A stretch of DNA of 64,000 nt, taken from Streptomyces sp. NBC_01707. Lineage in GTDB: Bacteria; Actinomycetota; Actinomycetes; Streptomycetales; Streptomycetaceae. The position numbers and the translations under genes are program-made. The DNA is taken from the NCBI RefSeq assembly GCF_041438805.1, contig NZ_CP109190.1, forward strand, positions 1,302,001 through 1,366,000, in the 5' to 3' direction. Below the pieces are notes generated by a model that did not search any database, was not told the origin of the DNA, and worked only from the letters and a program-made list of their open reading frames with translations. This document shows, piece after piece, positions 37,772 through 52,554 of this stretch (positions within the stretch are counted from its first letter, which is position 1; the number at the start of each line of letters is the position of its first letter).

Positions 37772-39295
37772 ATGACCCGTTACGCTGCGCCGGGCACCGA
37801 GGGCGCCATCGTCTCGTACGAGTCCCGCTACGACCACTGGATCGGCGGCGAGTACGTCCCGCCGGTCCGCGGTCAGTACTTCGAGAACCCGAGCCCCGTC
37901 AACGGCCGCCCGTTCACCGAGATCGCCCGCGGCACCGCCGAGGACATCGAACGCGCCCTGGACGCGGCGCACGCCGCCGCCCCTGCCTGGGGAGCCACGG
38001 CCGCCGGGGAGCGCGCGTCGGTCCTCAACCGGATAGCCGACCGGATGGAGGCGCACCTGGAGGAGCTGGCCGTCGCCGAGAGCTGGGACAACGGCAAGCC
38101 TGTGCGGGAGACACTGGCCGCCGACATCCCGCTCGCCATCGACCACTTCCGGTACTTCGCGGGTGCGCTGCGGGCCCAGGAGGGTTCGCTCAGCGAGATC
38201 GACGACGACACCGTTGCGTACCACTTCCACGAACCGCTCGGCGTGGTCGCTCAGATCATCCCGTGGAACTTCCCGATCCTGATGGCGACCTGGAAGCTGG
38301 CCCCGGCGCTCGCCGCAGGCAACGCGGTCGTCCTGAAGCCGGCCGAGCAGACCCCGGCCTCCATCCATGTGTGGCTGAGCCTGGTCGCCGATCTGCTGCC
38401 GCCGGGTGTCGTCAACATCGTCAACGGCTTCGGCGCGGAGGCCGGCAAGCCGCTCGCCTCCAGCCCGCGCGTCGCGAAGATCGCCTTCACCGGCGAGACC
38501 ACGACCGGGCGGCTGATCATGCAGTACGCCTCCGAGAACATCAAGCCGGTGACGCTGGAGCTGGGTGGCAAGTCACCGAACATCTTCTTCGACGACGTCT
38601 GGTCGGCGAACGACGACTTCCGCGACAAGGCCCTCGAAGGGTTCACGATGTTCGCCCTCAACCAGGGCGAGGTGTGCACCTGTCCGTCACGTGCGCTGAT
38701 CCAGCGCGGCCACTACAGCGAGTTCCTTGAAGCGGGGATCGCCCGTACCGAGCAGATCGTGCCGGGCCACCCGCTGGACACGGACACCATGATCGGCGCG
38801 CAGGCCTCCAACGACCAGCTGCAGAAGATCCTTTCCTATCTGGACATCGGCCAGCAGGAGGGCGCAAAGGTCCTGTCGGGTGGTCAGAAGATCGACTACG
38901 ACGGCGAGCTGGCGGGCGGCTACTACGTCCAGCCGACCATCTTCGAGGGCGACAACCGGATGCGGGTCTTCCAGGAGGAGATCTTCGGCCCGGTCGTCGC
39001 GGTGACGTCATTCTCGGACTTCGACGACGCGATCAGGACGGCGAACGACACGCTGTACGGCCTCGGTGCGGGCGTCTGGACCCGCGACGTCAACACCGCG
39101 TACCGGGCGGGCCGCGCGATCCAGGCGGGCCGGGTGTGGACGAACTGCTACCACGCCTACCCCGCGCATGCGGCCTTCGGCGGCTACAAGCAGTCAGGGA
39201 TCGGCAGGGAGAACCACAAGATGATGCTGGAGCACTACCAGCAGACGAAGAATCTGCTGGTGTCGTACTCGCCGAAGAAGCTGGGCTTCTTCTAG
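37772..39295 (+). CDS. Aldehyde dehydrogenase, ExaC/acetaldehyde dehydrogenase II type
   Basis: 507 aa NAD(P)-dependent aldehyde dehydrogenase. The ATG at 37772 opens [20 protein letters not shown]. Conserved features are [19 protein letters not shown] (cofactor site), [19 protein letters not shown], and the catalytic pair: Glu in [11 protein letters not shown] and Cys in [11 protein letters not shown]. Two cysteines at the active site are typical of this subgroup. It oxidises acetaldehyde or related aldehydes to acids. The GAF regulator upstream is its likely activator, with a MITE-like element between them. A hairpin terminator follows. Confidence 0.93.
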
Positions 39296-39306
39296 GGCAT
39301 GAGAAA

Positions 39307-39342
39307 AGGTGCCTGACCTAGGCTTTCACCGGTCAGGCACCT
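39307..39342 (+). terminator. Hairpin terminator after aldehyde dehydrogenase
   Basis: Perfect 12-bp stem AGGTGCCTGACC / GGTCAGGCACCT with a 12-base loop, beginning 11 bases after the stop codon. Confidence 0.8.
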
Positions 39343-39566
39343 GCCGCTCGGCGCCAGGTCGATCACGGGCGTCCCTCAACGGCGTCGAGATCGGTGGCCA
39401 AGAGGTCTCGACCTTCGGCGCCGGCAATCATCGGGCCCCCGGGACTCATGCCAGGCGAAGCTCTTGGACTCGCCCTTGAGGCCACGGTGGACGTGCAGCC
39501 GGTAGAAGAAGTGCGGCCGGCTGACCGGCCCACAACTGGCAGTTGGCGGGAAGTCGTCGTGAGTTA

Positions 39567-40847
39567 CTAGCGGCGGCTCTCCGCGTCCAGGGCCGGGTCC
39601 GGCACCGTGGCGCCCGCCCTCGTGGGTGCCCAAAGGGTCGCCGCGGAGAGCAGGGTCACGGCCGCCGCGCCCATGAGCATGGGTGCGTTGCCGAGCCAGG
39701 CGGCCAGCGCGCCCCCCGCAAGGGCTCCGACCGGCACCGTCGTGAGCAGTACCGCCTGCACGAGTCCCGCGGCGCGGCCCTGCATGCCGTCAGGGGTGAC
39801 CAGTTGCTGCGTGGTCGTCATGGAGATCATCCATACGGTACCGGAGAGGCCGTAGCAGACCTGGTACGCGACCAACACGGGGAAGGCGAGGCCCAGCGAC
39901 GCGGCCGGGATCAGGAACACGGCAGCGCCTGCTGCAAGTCCGAAGATCTGCGTGGCCCGCCACAACCCCGAGGTCCTGGCGAAGCGTCCGGCGAGCAGGG
40001 CGCCCGCCAGGGCGGCCGCGCTGTAGGCCGCGTACGTCGTACCCAACTGCCAGGCGGGCAGGGCAAGATCACGGGTCGCGTAGAAGACGTAGAGGGCGGC
40101 CGCCGCACCGCTGCCGAGGTTGAGTCCAGCGCCCGCCAGGACCATGCGGCGCAGCCGGCGCTCGGCGCGCACCACCGCGAGTCCCGTACGCAGCGAGCCG
40201 ACCAGGGACTTCGCGCGGGCGGGCTCCCGCGAGCCTGTCAGCGCATCCAGCGCGGCGGGCAGCGCGAACAGGATGAACGCCTCGATCGCGTAGGCCGCAC
40301 TGCCCGCGAGGAGCGCCGCGTCGGCTCCGAGGAGCCCGACCACGACACCGCCGAGCGCGGGCCCGCCGACCTGTCCGCTCGTACGGGCCGCGGTCAGGCC
40401 CGAGTTGGCGGCGAGGAGCCGCTCCGGTCCGACGACGCGCGGCAGCGCTGCCTGGAGCGCGACGGAGAGCGTGAAGGTCAAGGTGCCCGAGACGCCTGCG
40501 ACCACGTACAGGTGCGCCAGGGTGACATGCCCCACCGCGCCGGCCAACGGTATCGAGCCGACGACCAGGGTCTGCAGGGTGGTCAACCACACGAGGAGGC
40601 GGCGCAGCCTGATCCGGTCGACGATCGCTCCGGCCAGCGGGCTCAGCACGGCGCCGGGCAGATAGGTCAGCGCCAGCAGCGCGGCCGCCCCGAACGCCCC
40701 CGCGCCGAGGTCCGTCACGGCCAGCAGGGGCAGTGCGAGAGCGGTGATCTGCCGCCCGACGGAGCTGGCGACCTGCTCGCCGCACAGCAGCACGAAGGGA
40801 CGGTGGCGACGCAGGGGGACGGTCCCGTCGGCCAGTGACGCGCCCAA
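39567..40847 (-). CDS. MFS exporter of the radical SAM operon
   Basis: 426 aa with about 12 membrane helices, MFS_3/enterobactin-exporter-like: RRHRPFVLLCGEQVASSVGR, then LTYLPGAVLSPLAGAIVDRIRLRRLL. A TTG at 40847 is the likely start, only 3 bases after the stop of the DUF5825-like gene, so expression is coupled. Transporters of this class often export specialised metabolites. In this operon it is the natural candidate to export the modified peptide, although self-protection or an unrelated substrate cannot be excluded. Confidence 0.88.
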   Translation of the reverse strand: MGASLADGTVPLRRHRPFVLLCGEQVASSVGRQITALALPLLAVTDLGAGAFGAAALLALTYLPGAVLSPLAGAIVDRIRLRRLLVWLTTLQTLVVGSIPLAGAVGHVTLAHLYVVAGVSGTLTFTLSVALQAALPRVVGPERLLAANSGLTAARTSGQVGGPALGGVVVGLLGADAALLAGSAAYAIEAFILFALPAALDALTGSREPARAKSLVGSLRTGLAVVRAERRLRRMVLAGAGLNLGSGAAAALYVFYATRDLALPAWQLGTTYAAYSAAALAGALLAGRFARTSGLWRATQIFGLAAGAAVFLIPAASLGLAFPVLVAYQVCYGLSGTVWMISMTTTQQLVTPDGMQGRAAGLVQAVLLTTVPVGALAGGALAAWLGNAPMLMGAAAVTLLSAATLWAPTRAGATVPDPALDAESRR

Positions 40848-40850
40848 CCC

Positions 40851-41435
40851 TCAGATACCCGTGCAGGGAACGGGCCAGCGGTGCAGCCGCGGCGGCAGGG
40901 CCACCGCCCAACCGTCGGCGACGAGAGCGAGCCGCTCAGCCGCGAGCAGGTCGACGGCCTCCCGCTGCACGGCGTCGAGTTCACCGAGCGCCGTAGGCTC
41001 CTGGACCGTGGCGAAGGTGGCGAGCAGGTCCGGGTGGTCGAGGGTGAACCTCGCCGAGGCGGGCCGCTCTCTGCGGTCCATGACGGTGATGAAGTCCGGG
41101 CCGCGGCGGTGGTAGAGCATGCCGGCGGGGAAGGCGGCGTACGAGGTGCGCCAGTCCCTCAACTCATCTGGTTCGTCGGCTCGTTGGACGGGTGGTGGGA
41201 GGTGGTGCAGCATCCGCACGTACGAGGCTTCATACGTGTCAAGCGGGTCGTCGTCTCGCGCCCGGCCTTCGTAGGCGATCTCCCAGTGCGTACGGAACCG
41301 TTGGCTCTGGCACTCGCGCAGGAACTGGACCGCCACCGCCGTCTCACGCGCCGCCCCGCCCAGGCACAGCGGCACGTCCACGTGGACCTGTCGGCCGATC
41401 ACGCGGTGGGGGACGGCCACGGGAAGCCTGTTCAT
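40851..41435 (-). CDS. DUF5825-like protein of the radical SAM operon
   Basis: 194 aa. The ATG at 41435 overlaps the radical SAM stop (4 bp). Features: VIGRQVHVDVPLCLGGAARETAV, then FLRECQSQRFRTHWEIAYEG, then PAGMLYHRRGPDFITVMDRR and a C-terminal helix (ALGELDAVQREAVDLLAAERLAL). I recall this family, DUF5825, as a regular neighbour of RiPP-maturation radical SAM methyltransferases. The fold and function are unknown. It might be a recognition or partner protein for the radical SAM enzyme (inference). Confidence 0.75.
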   Translation of the reverse strand: MNRLPVAVPHRVIGRQVHVDVPLCLGGAARETAVAVQFLRECQSQRFRTHWEIAYEGRARDDDPLDTYEASYVRMLHHLPPPVQRADEPDELRDWRTSYAAFPAGMLYHRRGPDFITVMDRRERPASARFTLDHPDLLATFATVQEPTALGELDAVQREAVDLLAAERLALVADGWAVALPPRLHRWPVPCTGI

Positions 41436-43381
41436 TCGGCCACATCCTGACGGTCCGCGGGTAGCGGAGCCGGGTCGGGGTCGATCCGGTCCGGCACGTC
41501 CCACGTGGGCAGGGACACGTACGTCCGCCCGTCGCGGAACACCAGCCCCGTCGCCTGAGCCTGCTGGATCCACCCGCAAAGCCCCTCGGCCGGGATGTCG
41601 TGTCCGTCTCCGGTCAGCAGCCGGTGCAGCGCGGGCTCCGTCCGCCCGTCCTCGAGGCGGCGCAGCGCCTGCGCCCGCCAGCCGGTCAGCCGGTGGGTGC
41701 GGCGGGGCCAGCCGTGGCGCCGGTCGTGTACGAGCAGTACGTCCACGCCGTCCTCCGGCTCCGCTTCCTCCATCACCAGGCTCGATCCGTGGTGTCCGTC
41801 GCGCCATGCCGCGACGGCCCGCTTGAGTCGGCTCTCGGTCTCTCCGCCGATGCCCGCGTCGTCCGTCGCGAACAGGTAGACAAGGTCGGTGAGTTCGGAC
41901 TCGGGCAGCTCGTAGACATGGTGGTACATCTCGGCTGGGCGCCGCTTGCCGAAGCCGAACCCCGGGTCCGTGAAGTTCGGGCTGAACCGCTCCAGTTGGA
42001 TGCGGTGGGCGCCGCCCGGGGGCTGCAGGTGGACGAGCGCGGGCAACTGGTCGATGACCGGGGCGTAGTCCTCGACGGTCTCGCCCGGGAAGCCGTACAG
42101 GTAGTTCCAGGTGACGGTCAGCGCGTGGTTCTCGCACTCACGGAGTGTGCGGACGTTGCGGGCGCCGCTGACGCCCTTGTCCATGAGGTCGAGGACCCGG
42201 TTGCTCAGGCTTTCGATGCCGGGCTGAATGAGCACGGCTCCGGCCCGCCCGAGGAGTGCGATCTGTTCACGGTTGAGGTTGGACTTGACCTCGTAGTGCA
42301 TCCGCAGGTCCCAGCCGCTCTCGGCGGCGAGGGGCAGGAAGTCCTTGAAGTACGCCATGTCGATGATGTTGTCGACGGTGACGACGTCGAGGATGCGGTG
42401 CCGTCGTACGAGGCGGTCGATCTCGCTCCACAGCTGCTCGCCCGATTTGGCGCGGAACGTCATGGAGGAGCCGTTGAGCCCGCAGAAGGTGCAGTGGTGC
42501 TTCTCGCCCCACCAGCAGCCGCGTGCCCCCTCGACCACCAGCTTCGGGTAGACGTATTCGAGGACGGGGGATGCGTCGAGGGCTGCCTGCCACTGGTCGT
42601 AGTCGGGCGCAGGGATGTCGGAGGGCGCCACGGTGCGCCGGGACTCGGTGTTCGCCCGCGAGACCCGGCCGTCCGTCTGCCCTTCCCACCAGCACAGGCC
42701 CGGTACGTCGGCGGGTGGCGTGGCGGCGTCCAGGTGACGCAGGAGCGCCGGGAAGGCGTACTCGCCCTCGCCGCGCACCACGTGGTCGACGAAGGGATGG
42801 TTGCGGTGCAGGGCGTGCCCCATCGGGCCGTCGCAGTTGCTGCCGCCGAAGACGACGGTGAGCCCCGGACGGCGGCGCTTGAGCTCCCTGGCCAGCGCGA
42901 GCGAGGGCACGTTCTGCATGAACGTGCTGGTGAACCCGACGACGTCCGGTTCCTGGGCGAGCACTTCCGTCGCGCACTCGGCGATGAACTCGGCCGCGTG
43001 GACCCGCATGTCGGAGGCGGTGTCGATACAGAGGCCGCGACGCGCGGCGTACTCCTTCAGCCGGGCGACGCCCCAGCTCTCGTCCTCGTACAGCACACCC
43101 GAGAAGACCCAGTCACCGAGGCCGTCGAAGATCGAATCGCTGCCGATCGCCTCGTAGTCACCGGGGCGCAGCCGCCCGTCGGACCGCTCGAGGAGGAACT
43201 CCGCCCAGCGCAGCGAGCCGTGGAACTCACGCACATCGTCGTCCGGGCGGACCTGCCGCAACAGCCGGTGCAGCAAGCCCACTTGAAGAGAGGGCAGATC
43301 GATCGGGTGCCACGGCATGGTCACCAGCTGTACGCGCACACCACTCTCCCCCGTCACCGCCCCCTCGACATCCCCGCTCAC
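41432..43381 (-). CDS. Cobalamin-binding radical SAM protein, RiPP-maturation C-methyltransferase type
   Basis: 649 aa, GTG start at 43381. The N-terminal ~230 residues are a B12-binding-like domain (VRVQLVTMPWHPIDLPSLQVG, then VVGFTSTFMQNVPSLALAR and FGGSNCDGPMG). The radical SAM domain binds the 4Fe-4S cluster through C289, C297 and C300 in GCWWGEKHHCTFCGLNG. This Cx7Cx2C spacing is the hallmark I know from ribosomal-peptide-maturation radical SAM protein 1 (TIGR03975). A C-terminal domain of ~180 residues follows. Such enzymes methylate or rearrange unactivated carbons in a ribosomal peptide. It is coupled to a DUF5825-like gene and an exporter. Candidate substrate: the 41-aa ORF upstream. 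Confidence 0.9.
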   Translation of the reverse strand: MSGDVEGAVTGESGVRVQLVTMPWHPIDLPSLQVGLLHRLLRQVRPDDDVREFHGSLRWAEFLLERSDGRLRPGDYEAIGSDSIFDGLGDWVFSGVLYEDESWGVARLKEYAARRGLCIDTASDMRVHAAEFIAECATEVLAQEPDVVGFTSTFMQNVPSLALARELKRRRPGLTVVFGGSNCDGPMGHALHRNHPFVDHVVRGEGEYAFPALLRHLDAATPPADVPGLCWWEGQTDGRVSRANTESRRTVAPSDIPAPDYDQWQAALDASPVLEYVYPKLVVEGARGCWWGEKHHCTFCGLNGSSMTFRAKSGEQLWSEIDRLVRRHRILDVVTVDNIIDMAYFKDFLPLAAESGWDLRMHYEVKSNLNREQIALLGRAGAVLIQPGIESLSNRVLDLMDKGVSGARNVRTLRECENHALTVTWNYLYGFPGETVEDYAPVIDQLPALVHLQPPGGAHRIQLERFSPNFTDPGFGFGKRRPAEMYHHVYELPESELTDLVYLFATDDAGIGGETESRLKRAVAAWRDGHHGSSLVMEEAEPEDGVDVLLVHDRRHGWPRRTHRLTGWRAQALRRLEDGRTEPALHRLLTGDGHDIPAEGLCGWIQQAQATGLVFRDGRTYVSLPTWDVPDRIDPDPAPLPADRQDVAE

Positions 43382-43393
43382 GTTCCCGCCCGG

Positions 43394-43519
43394 TCAGCGG
43401 GTCGGCGGGCGCTTCTCCATGACGGCGGGCTTGCGGTTCGTGCGCTCCTCTTCGCGGATCACTACCTTTTTGATCTCCACGACTCTCCCCTGGTCGACGA
43501 CCTCGAACTCACGTGCCAC
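43394..43519 (-). CDS. 41-aa ORF, candidate precursor peptide of the radical SAM operon
   Basis: GTG at 43519 to TGA at 43394, ending 12 bp before the radical SAM GTG. The peptide begins MAREFEVVDQGRVVEIKK, continues VVIREEERTNRKPAV and ends MEKRPPTR. It is highly charged, with Val/Ile-rich strand-like stretches, no Cys and one Met near the end. AAGGTGA lies about 10 bases before the start. Position and size suit a RiPP precursor; V/I residues are plausible C-methylation sites. I know no homologue. It could instead be a small accessory protein or chance ORF. Confidence 0.5.
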   Translation of the reverse strand: MAREFEVVDQGRVVEIKKVVIREEERTNRKPAVMEKRPPTR

Positions 43520-43651
43520 ATAAAGCAGTTCACCTTACAGAGCGACACATGCGCCCCACAAGAACCCCGACGGCGGAGCGGGCCGCCCGTCAGTGGCCGT
43601 GCAGCACGGGATCACCGAAAGCGACTTTGGGGTATCGGGGTCGCCCTGCTC

Positions 43652-43829
43652 ATGGCCCTCGACGTGAGGGGGACAACGACCCGCTCGACCGCCCTGTTCC
43701 AACTCGCCACCGAGCTGCCCGCCGCCGTCCTCGCCCGAACCCTCGGCGTCCACATCACCGTCGCCGTCAAGTGGCAAGCCGCCTCCGGGGACTGGCCCGC
43801 CTATGTCGCCGATGTCAGCAACGGAAACC
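43652..43829 (+). pseudogene. Remnant of a site-specific integrase/recombinase C-terminus
   Basis: The frame reads RSTALFQLATELPAAVLARTL, then GVHITVAVKWQAASGDWPAYVA. This follows the C-terminus of a degenerate Streptomyces tyrosine-recombinase-like family, in which ALRQL...APAPVxAxALGxH...AxAGGxWxxY is typical. The N-terminal three quarters and the catalytic residues are missing. The frame runs without a stop into the next gene (43910). It marks an old integration near the RiPP-like operon. Confidence 0.5.
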
Positions 43830-43909
43830 TGCAGCGCCCTGGTCGAGAGGCCAAGCCAACGATCGCGCCGCACTGGCAACGCGCAACGCTTGACCACCAG
43901 AATCACGCC

Positions 43910-44533
43910 ATGGACGCAGGACTCGCAGGACTCCTCGGTGGCATCATCGGCGCGGCAGTCGGGGCACTCGGCGCTACGGCATCCGCGTGGATCACGGGAA
44001 GGAAAGCAGAGCAACAGGCCCAGATCCAGTCTGAGGCTCAGCTGGGGCAAGCCCGCCTTCAGATCGATGCCGAACGGACTCGTGCTCTTCGCGAATCGCG
44101 CAAGAGCGCCTACTTGGCCTTCGCTGAAAGCTGGCACCTCGTATATGGAACGCTGAGCGAAGCAGGCATCAAGCTCGGCGGCATCGAAGCAAGCGACCCT
44201 CCCGAGGAGCGCGAAGAGCGGCGCCGAGCAGCCCGCCACCTCTGGAACGAAGCACGTGCTCTCAACCGCTCACTCGACCGCCTTCAGCACGTCGTTTACG
44301 TGGAAGGCCCCCACCAGATGGGGGGCGCAGCGCAAGCGGCGACTGGCGCCTTGGTTCCGTACTTCCGCGCAGTCCTGGACTGGCTGCACTCGGTCGACCA
44401 TGGAACAGAAACACCGCAGCAGAGGTCCGACCAGGGCAGAGCCGGCAGCGATGCCTACGGCAAACTCCTGGAGTTTCTCTACGCCTCATCAGACGCCGTC
44501 AGTCCGGATATATCAGGCATCACAGACCCGTGA
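43910..44533 (+). CDS. Hypothetical membrane-anchored coiled-coil protein
   Basis: 207 aa. The ATG at 43910 opens DAGLAGLLGGIIGAAVGALGA, a Gly/Ala-rich membrane helix (about 3-26). A charged, Gln/Glu/Ala-rich helical region follows (GRKAEQQAQIQSEAQLGQAR, about 30-75), then a mainly helical domain to the end. No enzyme motif is present. It resembles short Streptomyces proteins found in mobile or accessory regions. The same frame is open upstream through the integrase remnant, so a longer fusion is formally possible. Confidence 0.7.
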   Translation: MDAGLAGLLGGIIGAAVGALGATASAWITGRKAEQQAQIQSEAQLGQARLQIDAERTRALRESRKSAYLAFAESWHLVYGTLSEAGIKLGGIEASDPPEEREERRRAARHLWNEARALNRSLDRLQHVVYVEGPHQMGGAAQAATGALVPYFRAVLDWLHSVDHGTETPQQRSDQGRAGSDAYGKLLEFLYASSDAVSPDISGITDP

Positions 44534-44711
44534 ACCTGGGAATTCAGGCAGCCTCAATACCCGACTCCACCATCAGGACGATTTCCGTAAGTAATTCCCA
44601 GGTGTGGCGTGAAATTAGCGCGTAGTGCGAAGACGGAGGTATCACACTACAATTGATGCAGGGCGAAATGTGTGGCCGATGCCCTCCCGGCATGGGAAAG
44701 AGCGCATACTC

Positions 44712-45386
44712 ATGGACGACTTCACGGCGGAGCCCGTCCTGGCAACGGGACGCGTGGGCCGAAACGACGGCGTCGTGCGCAGTGCCTTCGCTCTCATACG
44801 GGTCCTCGTCCAGGCCCAGCGTCCGGTGGGCGTCACGAAGCTCGCGTCGGCGGTGGGCCTGCCCAAGACGACCGCACACAGGATTCTGGAACAGTTGGCC
44901 CGCGAGGGTGTCGTGAAACGCCGCGACCACGAATGGGCACTGGGAACAGGGCTGGGCGACCTGTCGCAGGCCCCCTACCGAGCCGACCTGGCAGGTGTGG
45001 CGCAACTGCGCATGCATGCCCTGACCCGCGCCACAGGGGCGACTCTCTTCCTGTACGTACATTCCCCAGGACAACCGCTCAACGCTCTCTCCCGGTCCTA
45101 CGGGGCACGAACAGGCAGCGCCGTGACCGCCGGCGAGCAACGACGAGCCGGCGAGAATCCGGCTTCCGCCGTCTGGCGCGCTCTGGAACTCGGGCAACTG
45201 GCGGCCGAGTACGGGGAGGCGCACCCAGAGGTCGACTGCATCGCCACGCCCATGACCGTTCCCGCCGGTGACACCGCGATCCTCACCCTGGCCGAGCCCA
45301 GGGGCGTGAACCTGGAGCCCTTCAAACGCCCCCTGGACCGGACCATCGCTCTGATCCTTTCCGACCTGCGCCGCCTGGAACCCTGA
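44712..45386 (+). CDS. IclR-family-like transcriptional regulator
   Basis: 224 aa. The ATG at 44712 follows GGGAAAGAG. The N-terminal winged helix is clear: SAFALIRVLVQAQRPVGVTK, then LASAVGLPKTTAHRILEQLA (recognition helix) and REGVVKRR. The C-terminal effector domain (about 90-224) is shorter than the usual IclR domain. It lacks much of its first half, so the ligand pocket may be reduced. It lies upstream of a GMC oxidoreductase and truncated aldehyde dehydrogenase gene, its likely targets. A 17-bp palindrome precedes the oxidoreductase gene. Confidence 0.82.
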   Translation: MDDFTAEPVLATGRVGRNDGVVRSAFALIRVLVQAQRPVGVTKLASAVGLPKTTAHRILEQLAREGVVKRRDHEWALGTGLGDLSQAPYRADLAGVAQLRMHALTRATGATLFLYVHSPGQPLNALSRSYGARTGSAVTAGEQRRAGENPASAVWRALELGQLAAEYGEAHPEVDCIATPMTVPAGDTAILTLAEPRGVNLEPFKRPLDRTIALILSDLRRLEP

Positions 45387-45546
45387 CGAAAATGCCGCGC
45401 TCGCCATGATCGCGCGCGAATGAGGGACTGCAACGAGATCCGGCGGCTATTCACCACCTTGGTTGTCCGGCCCGTTCGTGAGGTGGCCCGCCGCCTCACC
45501 TGGTCCGCCTGGCGGCGCCACGTCCCGCCCGAGCCCGGAACTACCC

Positions 45547-45665
45547 GTAATCCCCCGCGGGCGCACGACGACAGCTACGGCACCTCGCCGCGTTGTCGGA
45601 TCACCCGAATGCGCCCGGCATGAGGACGGTCCTCCGCCTCGCGATGCACGGCATCTAGCGACGCG
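45547..45665 (+). repeat. Second, degenerate copy of the MITE-type sequence
   Basis: Aligns without large gaps to 37483-37600 and shares the block GACAGCTACGGCACCTCGCC exactly. CGTTGTCGGA and CTCCGCCT.GCGATGCAC are shared as well. Roughly four of five bases agree. The terminal inverted repeats are decayed here (left end ACTACCCGTAATCC), so this is an old fragment. Confidence 0.7.
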
Positions 45666-45974
45666 CACGAAGAAGAGGCGCCCGATCGCCGCGCCGCACA
45701 GGTTCCGCGCCTCATCGGTCCAACTGTACTTTCGTCCATTCCCTTGTGGAGCGACGGTTCCGTGATTTCGCCTGAGTAATTCATGGATCGCGCAACCCGT
45801 TGACCGGAAAACCCAGGAACGAGCCGTTCTGCAGGATCCGATCGGCCGCGTCCTGCGATTCCGGACGTGATCGGCGTCTCCGTGCGGACTCTCGCCGTCC
45901 CGTTTCGCTGAGTGGAACGAAAGACCTGCTCCGAACTCTTTCGCGCTACCCCTGTAGTAGCGCACGTGAGTGCC

Positions 45975-45991
45975 CCGACAGTCACTGTCGG
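45975..45991. promoter_or_regulatory. 17-bp perfect palindrome upstream of the GMC oxidoreductase gene
   Basis: CCGACAGT, C, ACTGTCGG: perfect arms of 8 bp around one base, 26 bases before the ATG at 46018. Size and symmetry fit an IclR-family operator, and an IclR-like gene lies directly upstream. That it is the regulator is inference. Confidence 0.55.
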
Positions 45992-46017
45992 ACGATTTCG
46001 ACTTGTTTGGAGAGGCC

Positions 46018-50058: not shown

Positions 50059-50709
50059 GCGTCTCTCCCTGGTTGGGGGTGCCTGGTGTGGACCCGGCTC
50101 GGTGGCTTACGCCTGGGGGCGAGGATGCGTGGGGCGTGACCAACTCATCCCGTCGCGGCCGCCCAGCCTGAGGGAAACCCTGTGCGACCGCCGAGGACCA
50201 GATGAAGGTAGCTGCCTCTGCGAGCCATGTCGAAGTTGCGATTTCCCTGTCCAAGTGGCCTCTTGCACGGGGTCTTTGCCGGAACTGGGGCGGTGGCGCT
50301 GCCTGCCTCCGTGGAAGTCCGCATCGGCCCGGCAAATGCCGAGAAGCAGCATCGACAACCCTGCTCAAGTCGGTGTGCCGGGGCGACGCGGCGGCGTTCT
50401 GGCGGCGTCGACTGGGTTGGATGACGGAGCGAAGCGTGTGCCTGCCGGTCACCGGTGGGGTTGGGGCGACGGTACTGCCGGCCTGCCGAGGAAAGCGCGG
50501 CATCCACCGTTCCGTCCCAGCACTCGAACGCGACATCCGGGCCTGGGTCGCGGACTGGAACGACCACCCACGACCGTCCACCTGGACCTGGACCGCCGAC
50601 GGGATCCTCGGCACGTTCGCGCCACCTATTCGATGAATCCCCGGCTCAGGTCACCAGGACGACCGGGTACAGTGCGCGCCGGCAGTGTGGTTACTTGAGG
50701 AGGGGAAGC
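50059..50709. other. 651-bp region: IS630 remnant, otherwise no gene
   Basis: Between the divergent DUF3291 and metallophosphoesterase genes. Apart from the IS630 tail at 50499-50636, open frames on both strands are short and lack ribosome sites or domain similarity. It is probably decayed mobile DNA plus the two promoters. Confidence 0.55.
50499..50636 (+). mobile_element. IS630-family transposase C-terminal remnant
   Basis: The frame reads GIHRSVPALERDIRAWVADW, then NDHPRPSTWTWTADGILGTF, with a stop at 50636. It matches the C-terminus of IS630 transposases (HRSVxxLExDIRAWIxxWNExPxPFxWTKTADEIL). The catalytic DDE domain is absent and the final residues have drifted, so the element is dead. 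Confidence 0.75.
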
Positions 50710-51936
50710 GTGACCGACACCAGCGAGGCCCGATCCGCGGACGGTGCAGCTCATGCGACCCAGCAGGGTCGACTGCGCCGCCTGATGCGCTACATCCCTT
50801 TGATCGCCCCCGTCCTGCTGTGGACTGTGCCCTGCTGGGTGCTGCTGCACGCCGGCCAGCACTGGCCGCTCCCCGTGGCGCTGGGCGGCACCGCCTTGTT
50901 CGTCCTCGGTCTGCTCGCCATGCCGCTGGCGATGGCGCGCGGCCACGGCCGGCAACAGCAGGACTGGGCGGCGATCGTCGGAGACACCCTCCTTGGGGCC
51001 AGCTGGGTACTGTTCACCTGGTCCGTCCTGCTCGGTGTCCTGCTGCGCCTCGCCCTGACCGTGGCCGGGGTAGGCAACGGTCAGAACCGGGCCCGGATCG
51101 TCAGTTGGGTGGTCCTCGGCGTAGCCGCCGGGCTGCTCGCCTGGGGGTACGCCGAGGCGCGCCGGGTGCCACGGGTGCGCGAGCTCGACGTACAAATCCC
51201 GCGGCTGGGAGCCGGGTTGGACGGCACCCGCGTCGTCCTCATCACCGACACCCACTACGGCCCGCTCGACCGCGCCCGCTGGTCGGCGCGGGTCTGCGCG
51301 AAGGTCAACACCCTGGAGGCCGACCTGGTCTGCCACACCGGCGACATCGCGGACGGCACGGCCCGACGCCGCCGCGCCCAGGCCGCTCCGCTCGGCACCG
51401 TGCGAGCCACCCGGGCCCGGGTCTACGTCACCGGAAACCACGAGTACTACAGCGAGGCCCAGGGCTGGGTCGATCTGATGGACGAGCTGGGCTGGGAGCC
51501 GCTGCGCAACCGTCATCTGCTGCTCGAACGCGGCGGCGACACCCTTGTGGTCGCCGGCGTGGATGACGTCACCGCCGAGTCCTCCGGCCTGGCCGGCCAC
51601 CGCGCCCACCTCGCCGGCGCCCTGGACGGCGCCGACCCCGACCTGCCCGTCCTGCTCCTGGCCCACCAGCCCAAGTTCGTCGACCAGGCCGCAGCGGGCG
51701 GCATCGACCTCCAACTCTCGGGCCATACCCACGGCGGCCAGATCTGGCCCTTCCACCACCTCGTCCGCATCGACCAGCCCGCCCTCGCCGGCCTCAGCCG
51801 CCACGGCACCCGCACCCTCCTGTACACCAGCCGCGGCACCGGTTTCTGGGGCCCGCCGTTCCGCGTCTTCGCCCCCAGCGAGATCACCCTGCTCGTACTC
51901 CGCTCCCCGCAGCCGCCTCCCACACAGCCCCTATGA
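50710..51936 (+). CDS. Membrane-anchored metallophosphoesterase (YkuE/YaeI-like)
   Basis: 408 aa, GTG at 50710 behind GAGGAGGGG. The N-terminal ~165 residues hold about four membrane helices. The calcineurin-type phosphoesterase domain shows all five metal-binding blocks: LITDTHYGPLD, CHTGDIADG, VTGNHEYYS, LLLAHQPKF and LSGHTHGGQIWP. Homologues hydrolyse lipid-linked or nucleotide phosphodiesters at the membrane; the physiological substrate is unknown. The gene is intact and flanked on both sides by remnants. Confidence 0.92.
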   Translation: MTDTSEARSADGAAHATQQGRLRRLMRYIPLIAPVLLWTVPCWVLLHAGQHWPLPVALGGTALFVLGLLAMPLAMARGHGRQQQDWAAIVGDTLLGASWVLFTWSVLLGVLLRLALTVAGVGNGQNRARIVSWVVLGVAAGLLAWGYAEARRVPRVRELDVQIPRLGAGLDGTRVVLITDTHYGPLDRARWSARVCAKVNTLEADLVCHTGDIADGTARRRRAQAAPLGTVRATRARVYVTGNHEYYSEAQGWVDLMDELGWEPLRNRHLLLERGGDTLVVAGVDDVTAESSGLAGHRAHLAGALDGADPDLPVLLLAHQPKFVDQAAAGGIDLQLSGHTHGGQIWPFHHLVRIDQPALAGLSRHGTRTLLYTSRGTGFWGPPFRVFAPSEITLLVLRSPQPPPTQPL

Positions 51937-52554
51937 GCGGCGTCCTGGCCGCAGCTGTCCGTGACCAGGTGGAAGATCTCTCGGGCCGCGTGGCGTTTGA
52001 CGCAACGGACGATTTCGCGGGCTTCCTCAATCGCGACGCCGACCACCGGAGAATGCAGCTGGAGTCGGTACGTGACATGGCCGCGGCTGTTCAGCGTGCT
52101 GTCCTGCCACACCCTCCGGACAGAATCGGTCCGCTGAACTCAAGCCGGCGATGCTGCGCGCCACGGCGGTCTCGGGGCAGCCCGAGGGCCCCGGACGGCA
52201 GCCAGGAACTGCATTCACCCGAGGCCGTGGTCGCCGGGCTCGGTAGCGAAACCGCCGGGCGGCCCCTTCTGCAGCTCCCCCTTATGCAGGTGGCGTACAT
52301 CGGTTGCCCGGCCACCAAGCGTCGGACGTACTCGTTGCTGCCTGTGCCCGAGCTGGCGGCCTGGATCGCGAGCCGCTCAGCCGCCGTAGTGGAACTACGC
52401 ACGCCGTCAGGGCCGGCCAACGGCCCGGCACAGGGACCTTGGAGAAGCCGGGCCGTGCTCGCCCTGACCCGCTGGCGTCACAGCCCGCGAAGATGAAATG
52501 GTCGCCACGGCCGAGGGACCATGTATTCCCTCCGGAACACGACAGGGAGAGACT
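51937..52554. other. 618-bp remnant region
   Basis: Contains a piece of a SpoIIE-type phosphatase (52014-52136) and no other identifiable gene. A minus-strand stretch near 52310-52420 (AAERLAIQAASSGTGSNEYVRR) has antitoxin-like composition, but it is too short and lacks a start. The last 60 bases carry the ribosome site (AGGGAG) of the 5'-nucleotidase gene. Confidence 0.5.
52014..52136 (+). pseudogene. Fragment of a PP2C/SpoIIE phosphatase
   Basis: The plus frame has FAGFLNRDADHRRMQLESVR, then DMAAAVQRAVLPHPPDRIGPL. This is the segment that precedes the first catalytic strand in Streptomyces SpoIIE-type phosphatases (xLESVRxVAEAAQRxVLPPLPxRxGxL). The metal-binding GGDxYD and later motifs are missing and the frame degenerates immediately afterwards. 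Confidence 0.6.

Follow-up and report, generated by a model that had tools for sequence, protein, structure and literature searches.

The window, by which we mean the whole 64,000-nt stretch of DNA analysed (Streptomyces sp. NBC_01707, assembly GCF_041438805.1, contig NZ_CP109190.1, positions 1,302,001-1,366,000 of the forward strand), contains a four-gene set that we read, with a probability of roughly 0.7, as a self-contained cassette that extends from a promoter-like element to the stop codon of an MFS gene and whose product would be a C-methylated RiPP, of the type made with B12-radical-SAM/DUF5825 pairs (Table 1). The tight packing of these minus-strand genes, described in the original prediction, is borne out by the layout of the open reading frames, as is the 4-bp overlap of the enzyme and DUF5825 genes; the gap between the precursor and enzyme genes, previously given as 12 bp, is 54 bp because the start of the enzyme has moved to 43339. 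That the small ORF is the precursor gene of a minimal RiPP-type operon is well supported by its conservation beside homologous enzymes, and the precursor claim holds once the start of the ORF is corrected.

Table 1. Features of the cassette, in window coordinates
Feature	Position	Strand	Basis or remark
Weak terminator-like hairpin	39514..39527	-	End of unit; not above chance
MFS transporter, probable exporter, optional part	39567..40847	-	MFS_1 above cut-off
DUF5825 protein, 194 aa, homologous to C-terminal half of enzyme	40851..41435	-	PF19142
B12-binding radical SAM enzyme, 635 aa, TIGR03975, C-terminal PqqD/RRE-like domain	41432..43339	-	
Precursor peptide gene, most likely 28 aa, GTG start, VEIKKVVIREEERTNRKPAVMEKRPPTR	43394..43480	-	Conservation begins at start codon
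Probable ribosome-binding site AGGGGAG of precursor	43485..43491	-	Read from sequence
Promoter-like element CTTGTG-N19-TAAGGT	43532..43562	-	Upstream alignment

Relatives came from two collections: an even draw of 392 genomes of the same genus, 99 of which hold such an enzyme at E<=1e-60, and a public genome collection of which the best 80 of 517 loci were used. Seventeen of the 99 (the own genome counted in) hold a close relative with at least 73% identity. In a maximum-likelihood tree of 96 distinct enzymes, computed in quick mode without bootstrap and with long branches that make the placement of outliers unsure, the 45 peptide-bearing enzymes together with those of loci L038 and L042 form a single clade (clade C; SH-aLRT 99). 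A second clade (SH-aLRT 100; 38 rows) comprises 36 loci with precursors, such as MTMQKDVIHNNPLEDDEENRKPGVSITITVPIRNAEETEEI (L079) and VRKAVVHNDPLDLKNQSRANRPIIVIIVSS (L019), and two without a recognised one (L077 and L094). The own genome (three contigs) contains one such enzyme at E<=0.001; a possible second copy of the peptide there, a weak match at E 0.017 inside a 492-aa frame, was taken as chance.

The precursor claim had been made to depend on whether the small ORF is kept next to homologous enzymes; this was looked for and is the case. With the public loci represented by the best 80 of 517, the ORF adjoins 45 of the 47 distinct clade-C enzymes and occurs in 53 of 56 records whose enzyme is at least 70% identical; these records, the window and duplicates counted in, amount to 43 distinct DNA sequences and 33 distinct peptides. 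In the same-genus draw (392 genomes, the own genome counted in), all 17 clade-C loci carry it. Six residues (I3, K5, R16, K23, R24 and P26, in the numbering of the window) are identical in all 33 distinct peptides, position 20 is always Ile, Val or Thr, and the length of the middle changes by whole codons. Aromatic residues are absent from all 33, and Cys is found in one only, as the final residue (L059). Over 352 pairs of equal length, which are not independent of each other, pN/pS is 0.60 in frame and 1.23 and 1.07 in the two remaining frames, a sign of moderate selection only. Beside related enzymes other small ORFs occupy the same place, alike at the N-terminus and different at the C-terminus, which is a leader/core pattern.

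Further forms of small ORF were seen at individual loci. Upstream of the L018 enzyme (56%), at about 65-326 nt, lies a long precursor-like ORF that starts with MELKK and holds several VRVASSP-like repeats, possibly a multi-core precursor, and L095 has two tandem clavusporin-like precursor ORFs 102-402 nt upstream of its enzyme. The small ORFs beside the related enzymes of two Micromonospora loci differ again (L068, with MKIKKVAIKKVTHGSCKYHVVLKQQGK, and L070), another accompanies an Actinoplanes enzyme (L071, MKIKVENVKRPDETRTKKELPRSTGIIPIRSLENK), and one in Myxococcus (L072) has GG ahead of a TTPTITTVTVTVVF stretch.

The original prediction gave the small ORF 41 codons, from 43519; the precursor is most likely 28 aa long, from the GTG at 43480, where conservation starts. 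When the 41-aa ORF was compared by tblastn with 110 loci and the window, it was conserved mainly from residue 14 onward. In three loci with enzymes 86-90% identical (L003, L032 and L033) the first codons match in another frame only, as short weak hits (E 3.0-6.1), and the promoter-like element ends at 43532, 13 nt ahead of the 41-aa start, which would leave no room for a ribosome site there. Because of these weak, out-of-frame matches and the closeness of the element, the 41-aa form is less likely. What counts against the shorter form is that all 41 codons are open in the three closest relatives (L002, L031 and L058) and in five closely related database proteins, which by itself would permit the longer one. 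Many relatives have a purine-rich stretch before the precursor start at a distance similar to that of the probable ribosome-binding site. Most loci encode a peptide of 26-28 aa; in 4 of the 33 distinct peptides the EIKK is preceded by Pro and the frame opens further upstream, giving about 40-48 aa from the likely start in L014-L016, L056, L060 and L061.

The promoter-like element can also be read as TTGTGG-N18-TAAGGT, with the -35/-10 spacing of a vegetative sigma factor; a generic sigma-70 scan reported no site. Its pattern (CTTG...TAnnGT) occurs in 44 of 48 distinct upstream regions, 42 of the 45 with the peptide and 2 of the 3 without it (L038 and L042), a count that is not an independent test since the pattern was derived from the same alignment. 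Over whole loci its rate is about 0.007 per 200 nt, these sites counted in, and in shuffled sequences 0.0014. In the 42 peptide-bearing regions the element lies 67-140 nt before the EIKK start codon; in L042 it starts 42 nt before the matched start of the enzyme.

The boundaries of DNA homology give the cassette the character of a unit. In L032 and L033 homology with the window covers 39565-43563 and 39569-43562, respectively, at 84-87% identity, that is, everything from the promoter-like element through the stop of the MFS gene, and L058 and L031 have 39527-43678 in common with it at 96-97% identity. The flanks of these four loci contain no match longer than 150 nt at E<=1e-10, one separate block of L031 excepted (window 50654-52019). 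Going by these limits, the cassette is kept or moved as one unit. The hairpin listed in Table 1 coincides with the end of the L058/L031 homology at 39527; one hairpin was found, against a mean of 1.0 in shuffled sequences. Just upstream of the cassette is an open frame on the plus strand (43646-43900) which we take to resemble the end of a tyrosine recombinase; it has no Pfam match, and the DNA shared with L058 and L031 reaches into it. A regulatory RNA reading was rejected, as an Rfam scan of 38500-46000 gave nothing at the gathering threshold, and so was a defence system, with no PADLOC match at E<=0.01 for the enzyme, the DUF5825 protein or the ORF at 43538-44239.

The enzyme is, as first proposed, a cobalamin-binding radical SAM protein: it scores 548.8 bits against TIGR03975 (RiPP-maturation B12 radical SAM enzymes; cut-off 281.85), a model that bears the name of a C-methyltransferase family, has PF02310 (B12-binding) and PF04055 (Radical_SAM) both above cut-off, and shows the B12-radical-SAM fold. 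The predicted Cx7Cx2C triad (C289, C297 and C300, in the numbering of the 649-aa ORF) is present and invariant in an alignment of 57 rows. Its start has to be revised, from that of the 649-aa ORF to the GTG at 43339 (635 aa); a start codon stands at the equivalent position in all 44 loci, of 45 in clade C, in which the motif was found (33 ATG, 10 GTG, 1 TTG), and further upstream the frame lacks any start codon in L002, L031 and L058 (96-98% identical).

The adjoining gene was correctly called DUF5825-like (PF19142 69.2 bits, gathering cut-off 25). Aligned with the enzyme by hhalign, its product gives P 4.3e-12 and a score of 91.4, where 40 column shuffles stay at or below 18.5. Its predicted model (pLDDT 89) has nothing at E<=0.001 in a Foldseek comparison with the PDB, where a sequence search likewise found no convincing relative (best E 0.16). 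The gene lies downstream in 44 of 45 clade-C loci; at L064 the peptide, enzyme and MFS genes are there and DUF5825 was not found, which makes that locus a natural test of the need for it. In the second clade the tblastn search with the DUF5825 protein of the window missed 8 of 34 loci, in at least three of which (L107, L096 and L029) a DUF5825-like frame is visible. A metal site in DUF5825 was considered and dropped as not general: among clavusporin-like rows 12 of 22 have C-x-C, as against 0 of 31 from clade C and 1 of 12 from elsewhere.

The original prediction saw no gene for peptide recognition. As far as a named recognition family is concerned this stands; as a statement that every recognition part is lacking it does not. 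The enzyme carries a PqqD-like domain at about residues 535-623 (649-aa numbering), modelled as three strands followed by three helices, and in hhalign residues 530-628 of the enzyme match PqqD along 65 columns with P 9e-9; the score is 46.0, and 60 shuffles reach no more than 18.2. Controls gave P 0.0046 (IclR winged-helix) and P 0.012 or worse (six other segments of the enzyme). Together with the homology of DUF5825 to the C-terminal half of the enzyme, this domain suggests that a peptide-recognition part is probably present. Binding is a prediction from these homologies, and the arrangement differs from PqqD-type RREs in being fused to the C-terminus of a B12-radical-SAM enzyme; the accessible parts of two RRE papers (PMC12710340, PMC7470986) describe no such fusion.

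The last gene encodes an MFS protein as predicted (TIGR00900 151.7 bits, under its cut-off of 319.6). This probable exporter is not a fixed part; it follows directly in 24 of 45 clade-C loci. Neighbours were counted only in loci with enough flank and only where backed by Pfam or tblastn, as flank gene calls by GC3 are noisy. There is no leader protease among the four operon genes, and a prolyl oligopeptidase (tblastn with the L104 protein, E<=1e-10) is upstream in none of the 28 clade-C loci whose upstream sequence extends over 3.5 kb or more, whereas 23 of 24 loci of the second clade have it (in L104 Pfam confirms it as S9). We take the second clade to be that of the clavusporins because of this protease and the enzyme pair. 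Upstream of the peptide operon in 17 of the 28 clade-C loci is Pnkp (polynucleotide kinase-phosphatase/ligase, RNA repair), for example at L046:3063-5804, Pfam being checked in L046 only; it accompanies 13 of 13 loci without MFS and 4 of 15 with it.

Clavusporins (mpc) are reportedly hydrophobic surfactants that aid Streptomyces development, and their core is said to be hydrophobic and multiply C-methylated. The original prediction knew of no described product for the present layout; according to the available part of PMC12257519, however, a homologous B12-radical-SAM/DUF5825 pair C-methylates amino acids to make the clavusporins, a likeness to the window that is one of description. The presumed clavusporin clade also has a short precursor directly upstream of the enzyme. 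Clade C differs in its EIKK...EKRP precursor with a basic core, in its separate enzyme clade and in the MFS gene downstream when present; the core, AVMEKRPPTR, is charged and not hydrophobic, and the MpcP-like prolyl oligopeptidase, MpcP being the leader protease of the clavusporins (PMC12951456, in part), is missing from the 28 clade-C loci with enough upstream sequence.

Other known systems are more distant. Polytheonamide is the product of PoyB/PoyC. These enzymes, bottromycin BotRMT1-3 and TsrM are class B (B12) C-methyltransferases of RiPPs with cobalamin-binding and radical SAM domains that methylate carbon, as is proposed here, but their precursors and partners are different ones (the accessible text of PMC11285071 speaks of no DUF5825 partner), and CxxxCxxC is typical of that class as against the Cx7Cx2C of our enzyme (PMC11285071). 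Biphenomycin-like pathways (pbs/bip) resemble the window in combining a B12-radical-SAM enzyme with MFS, and relatives with YHxYxY precursors have a second such enzyme with DUF5825; their MNIO, arginase and TldD-type protease are absent from our four genes, and their chemistry, as far as the sections at hand describe it, is another (PMC12257519, PMC12707348). Among the titles and abstracts listed in literature searches none describes an EIKK...EKRP peptide family, although the main clavusporin study may do so. Clade C looks like a genuine, separate and so far undescribed branch of a recently discovered peptide family.

We propose that translation of the first gene on the transcript would yield the 28-aa precursor. 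Since the peptides of the different clades are alike at the N-terminus and differ at the C-terminus, the N-terminal half (VEIKKVVIREEE) would be the leader and the C-terminal part the core. The leader would be gripped by the RRE-like domain at the C-terminus of the enzyme and possibly by the related DUF5825 domain as well. By analogy with the clavusporins, the enzyme would use methylcobalamin and SAM to methylate an unactivated carbon in the core, V20 being the best candidate site and the residue after it the second choice. Cleavage of the product, if any, would fall after P18 and be due to a protease encoded elsewhere; the product may also stay uncut, as the prolyl oligopeptidase is missing from the 28 clade-C loci and the Pro before the core from 5 of 33 peptides (the NRER and KRDR subgroups). 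Where present, the MFS protein would export the product.

Several observations count against this reading, namely the lack of an operon leader protease, the moderate pN/pS, the failure to find DUF5825 at L064, a core that is basic and short, unlike clavusporin-like cores, and the two intact clade-C loci (L038 and L042) that have the enzyme, DUF5825 and the promoter-like element with no peptide beside them. Their genomes, searched with a clade-C peptide, yielded none (0 of 2 at E<=1); the third locus without a peptide, L066, is truncated and not in the tree. The same two loci are what would be expected if the small ORF were a regulatory upstream ORF (an attenuator leader peptide) or a small partner protein and the true substrate lay elsewhere or were a protein, and the shortness of the peptide and the five cases without Pro could be cited to the same effect. 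We nevertheless regard this as quite improbable, because both ends of the peptide are conserved while its middle changes by whole codons, a small ORF of another kind occupies the same place in related clades, and the Rfam scan of 38500-46000 gave no match at the gathering threshold.

If the small peptide is accepted as the substrate, its chemistry might still be a cross-link, an epimerisation or another radical reaction instead of C-methylation. PbsB and BipD, B12-radical-SAM enzymes of the biphenomycin pathways, make biaryl bonds according to the parts of PMC12257519 and PMC12707348 at our disposal; as the related PbsB cross-links and does not methylate, methylation here is not certain, and the clavusporin-like clade has cores rich in V/I/T, from which the conserved EKRP core differs. 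Such chemistry is nonetheless unlikely in our judgement: without aromatic residues, and with a single case of Cys, the peptides are missing the usual partners of a cross-link, the enzyme belongs to a family named for C-methylation, and the sole characterised B12-radical-SAM/DUF5825 pair that we found mentioned methylates carbon (PMC12257519, as far as available). At the other extreme, the same enzyme pair in the same order of precursor, enzyme and DUF5825 could denote an ordinary clavusporin operon with a hydrophobic, surfactant-like product; the separate enzyme clades, the charged core and the lack of the oligopeptidase in the 28 loci make this very improbable indeed. C-methylation of a short basic peptide is the reading that we retain.

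For the annotation of such loci the consequence is that this precursor family is missed or is started too early, databases holding versions of 41, 47 and 57 aa. The substrate range of B12-radical-SAM/DUF5825 pairs is probably widened from hydrophobic to basic cores, and both the origin and the role of DUF5825 become testable, as a relative of the C-terminal half of its partner enzyme and a probable peptide-holding subunit. With a 28-aa substrate, two modifying proteins and no protease, the cassette would offer a simple system for C-methylation at unactivated carbon. A bolder proposal, which we put forward as doubtful, is that clade C represents a distinct class of very short, basic, C-methylated peptides from a two-part radical enzyme. 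Its parts would be a catalytic B12-radical-SAM protein with its own recognition domain and DUF5825, descended from the C-terminal half of such an enzyme with loss of the cofactor-binding parts, so that a single substrate of 28 residues would be gripped by two related peptide-binding domains; as the operon encodes no protease, the modified peptide may act in uncut form, as a signal or a cofactor precursor.
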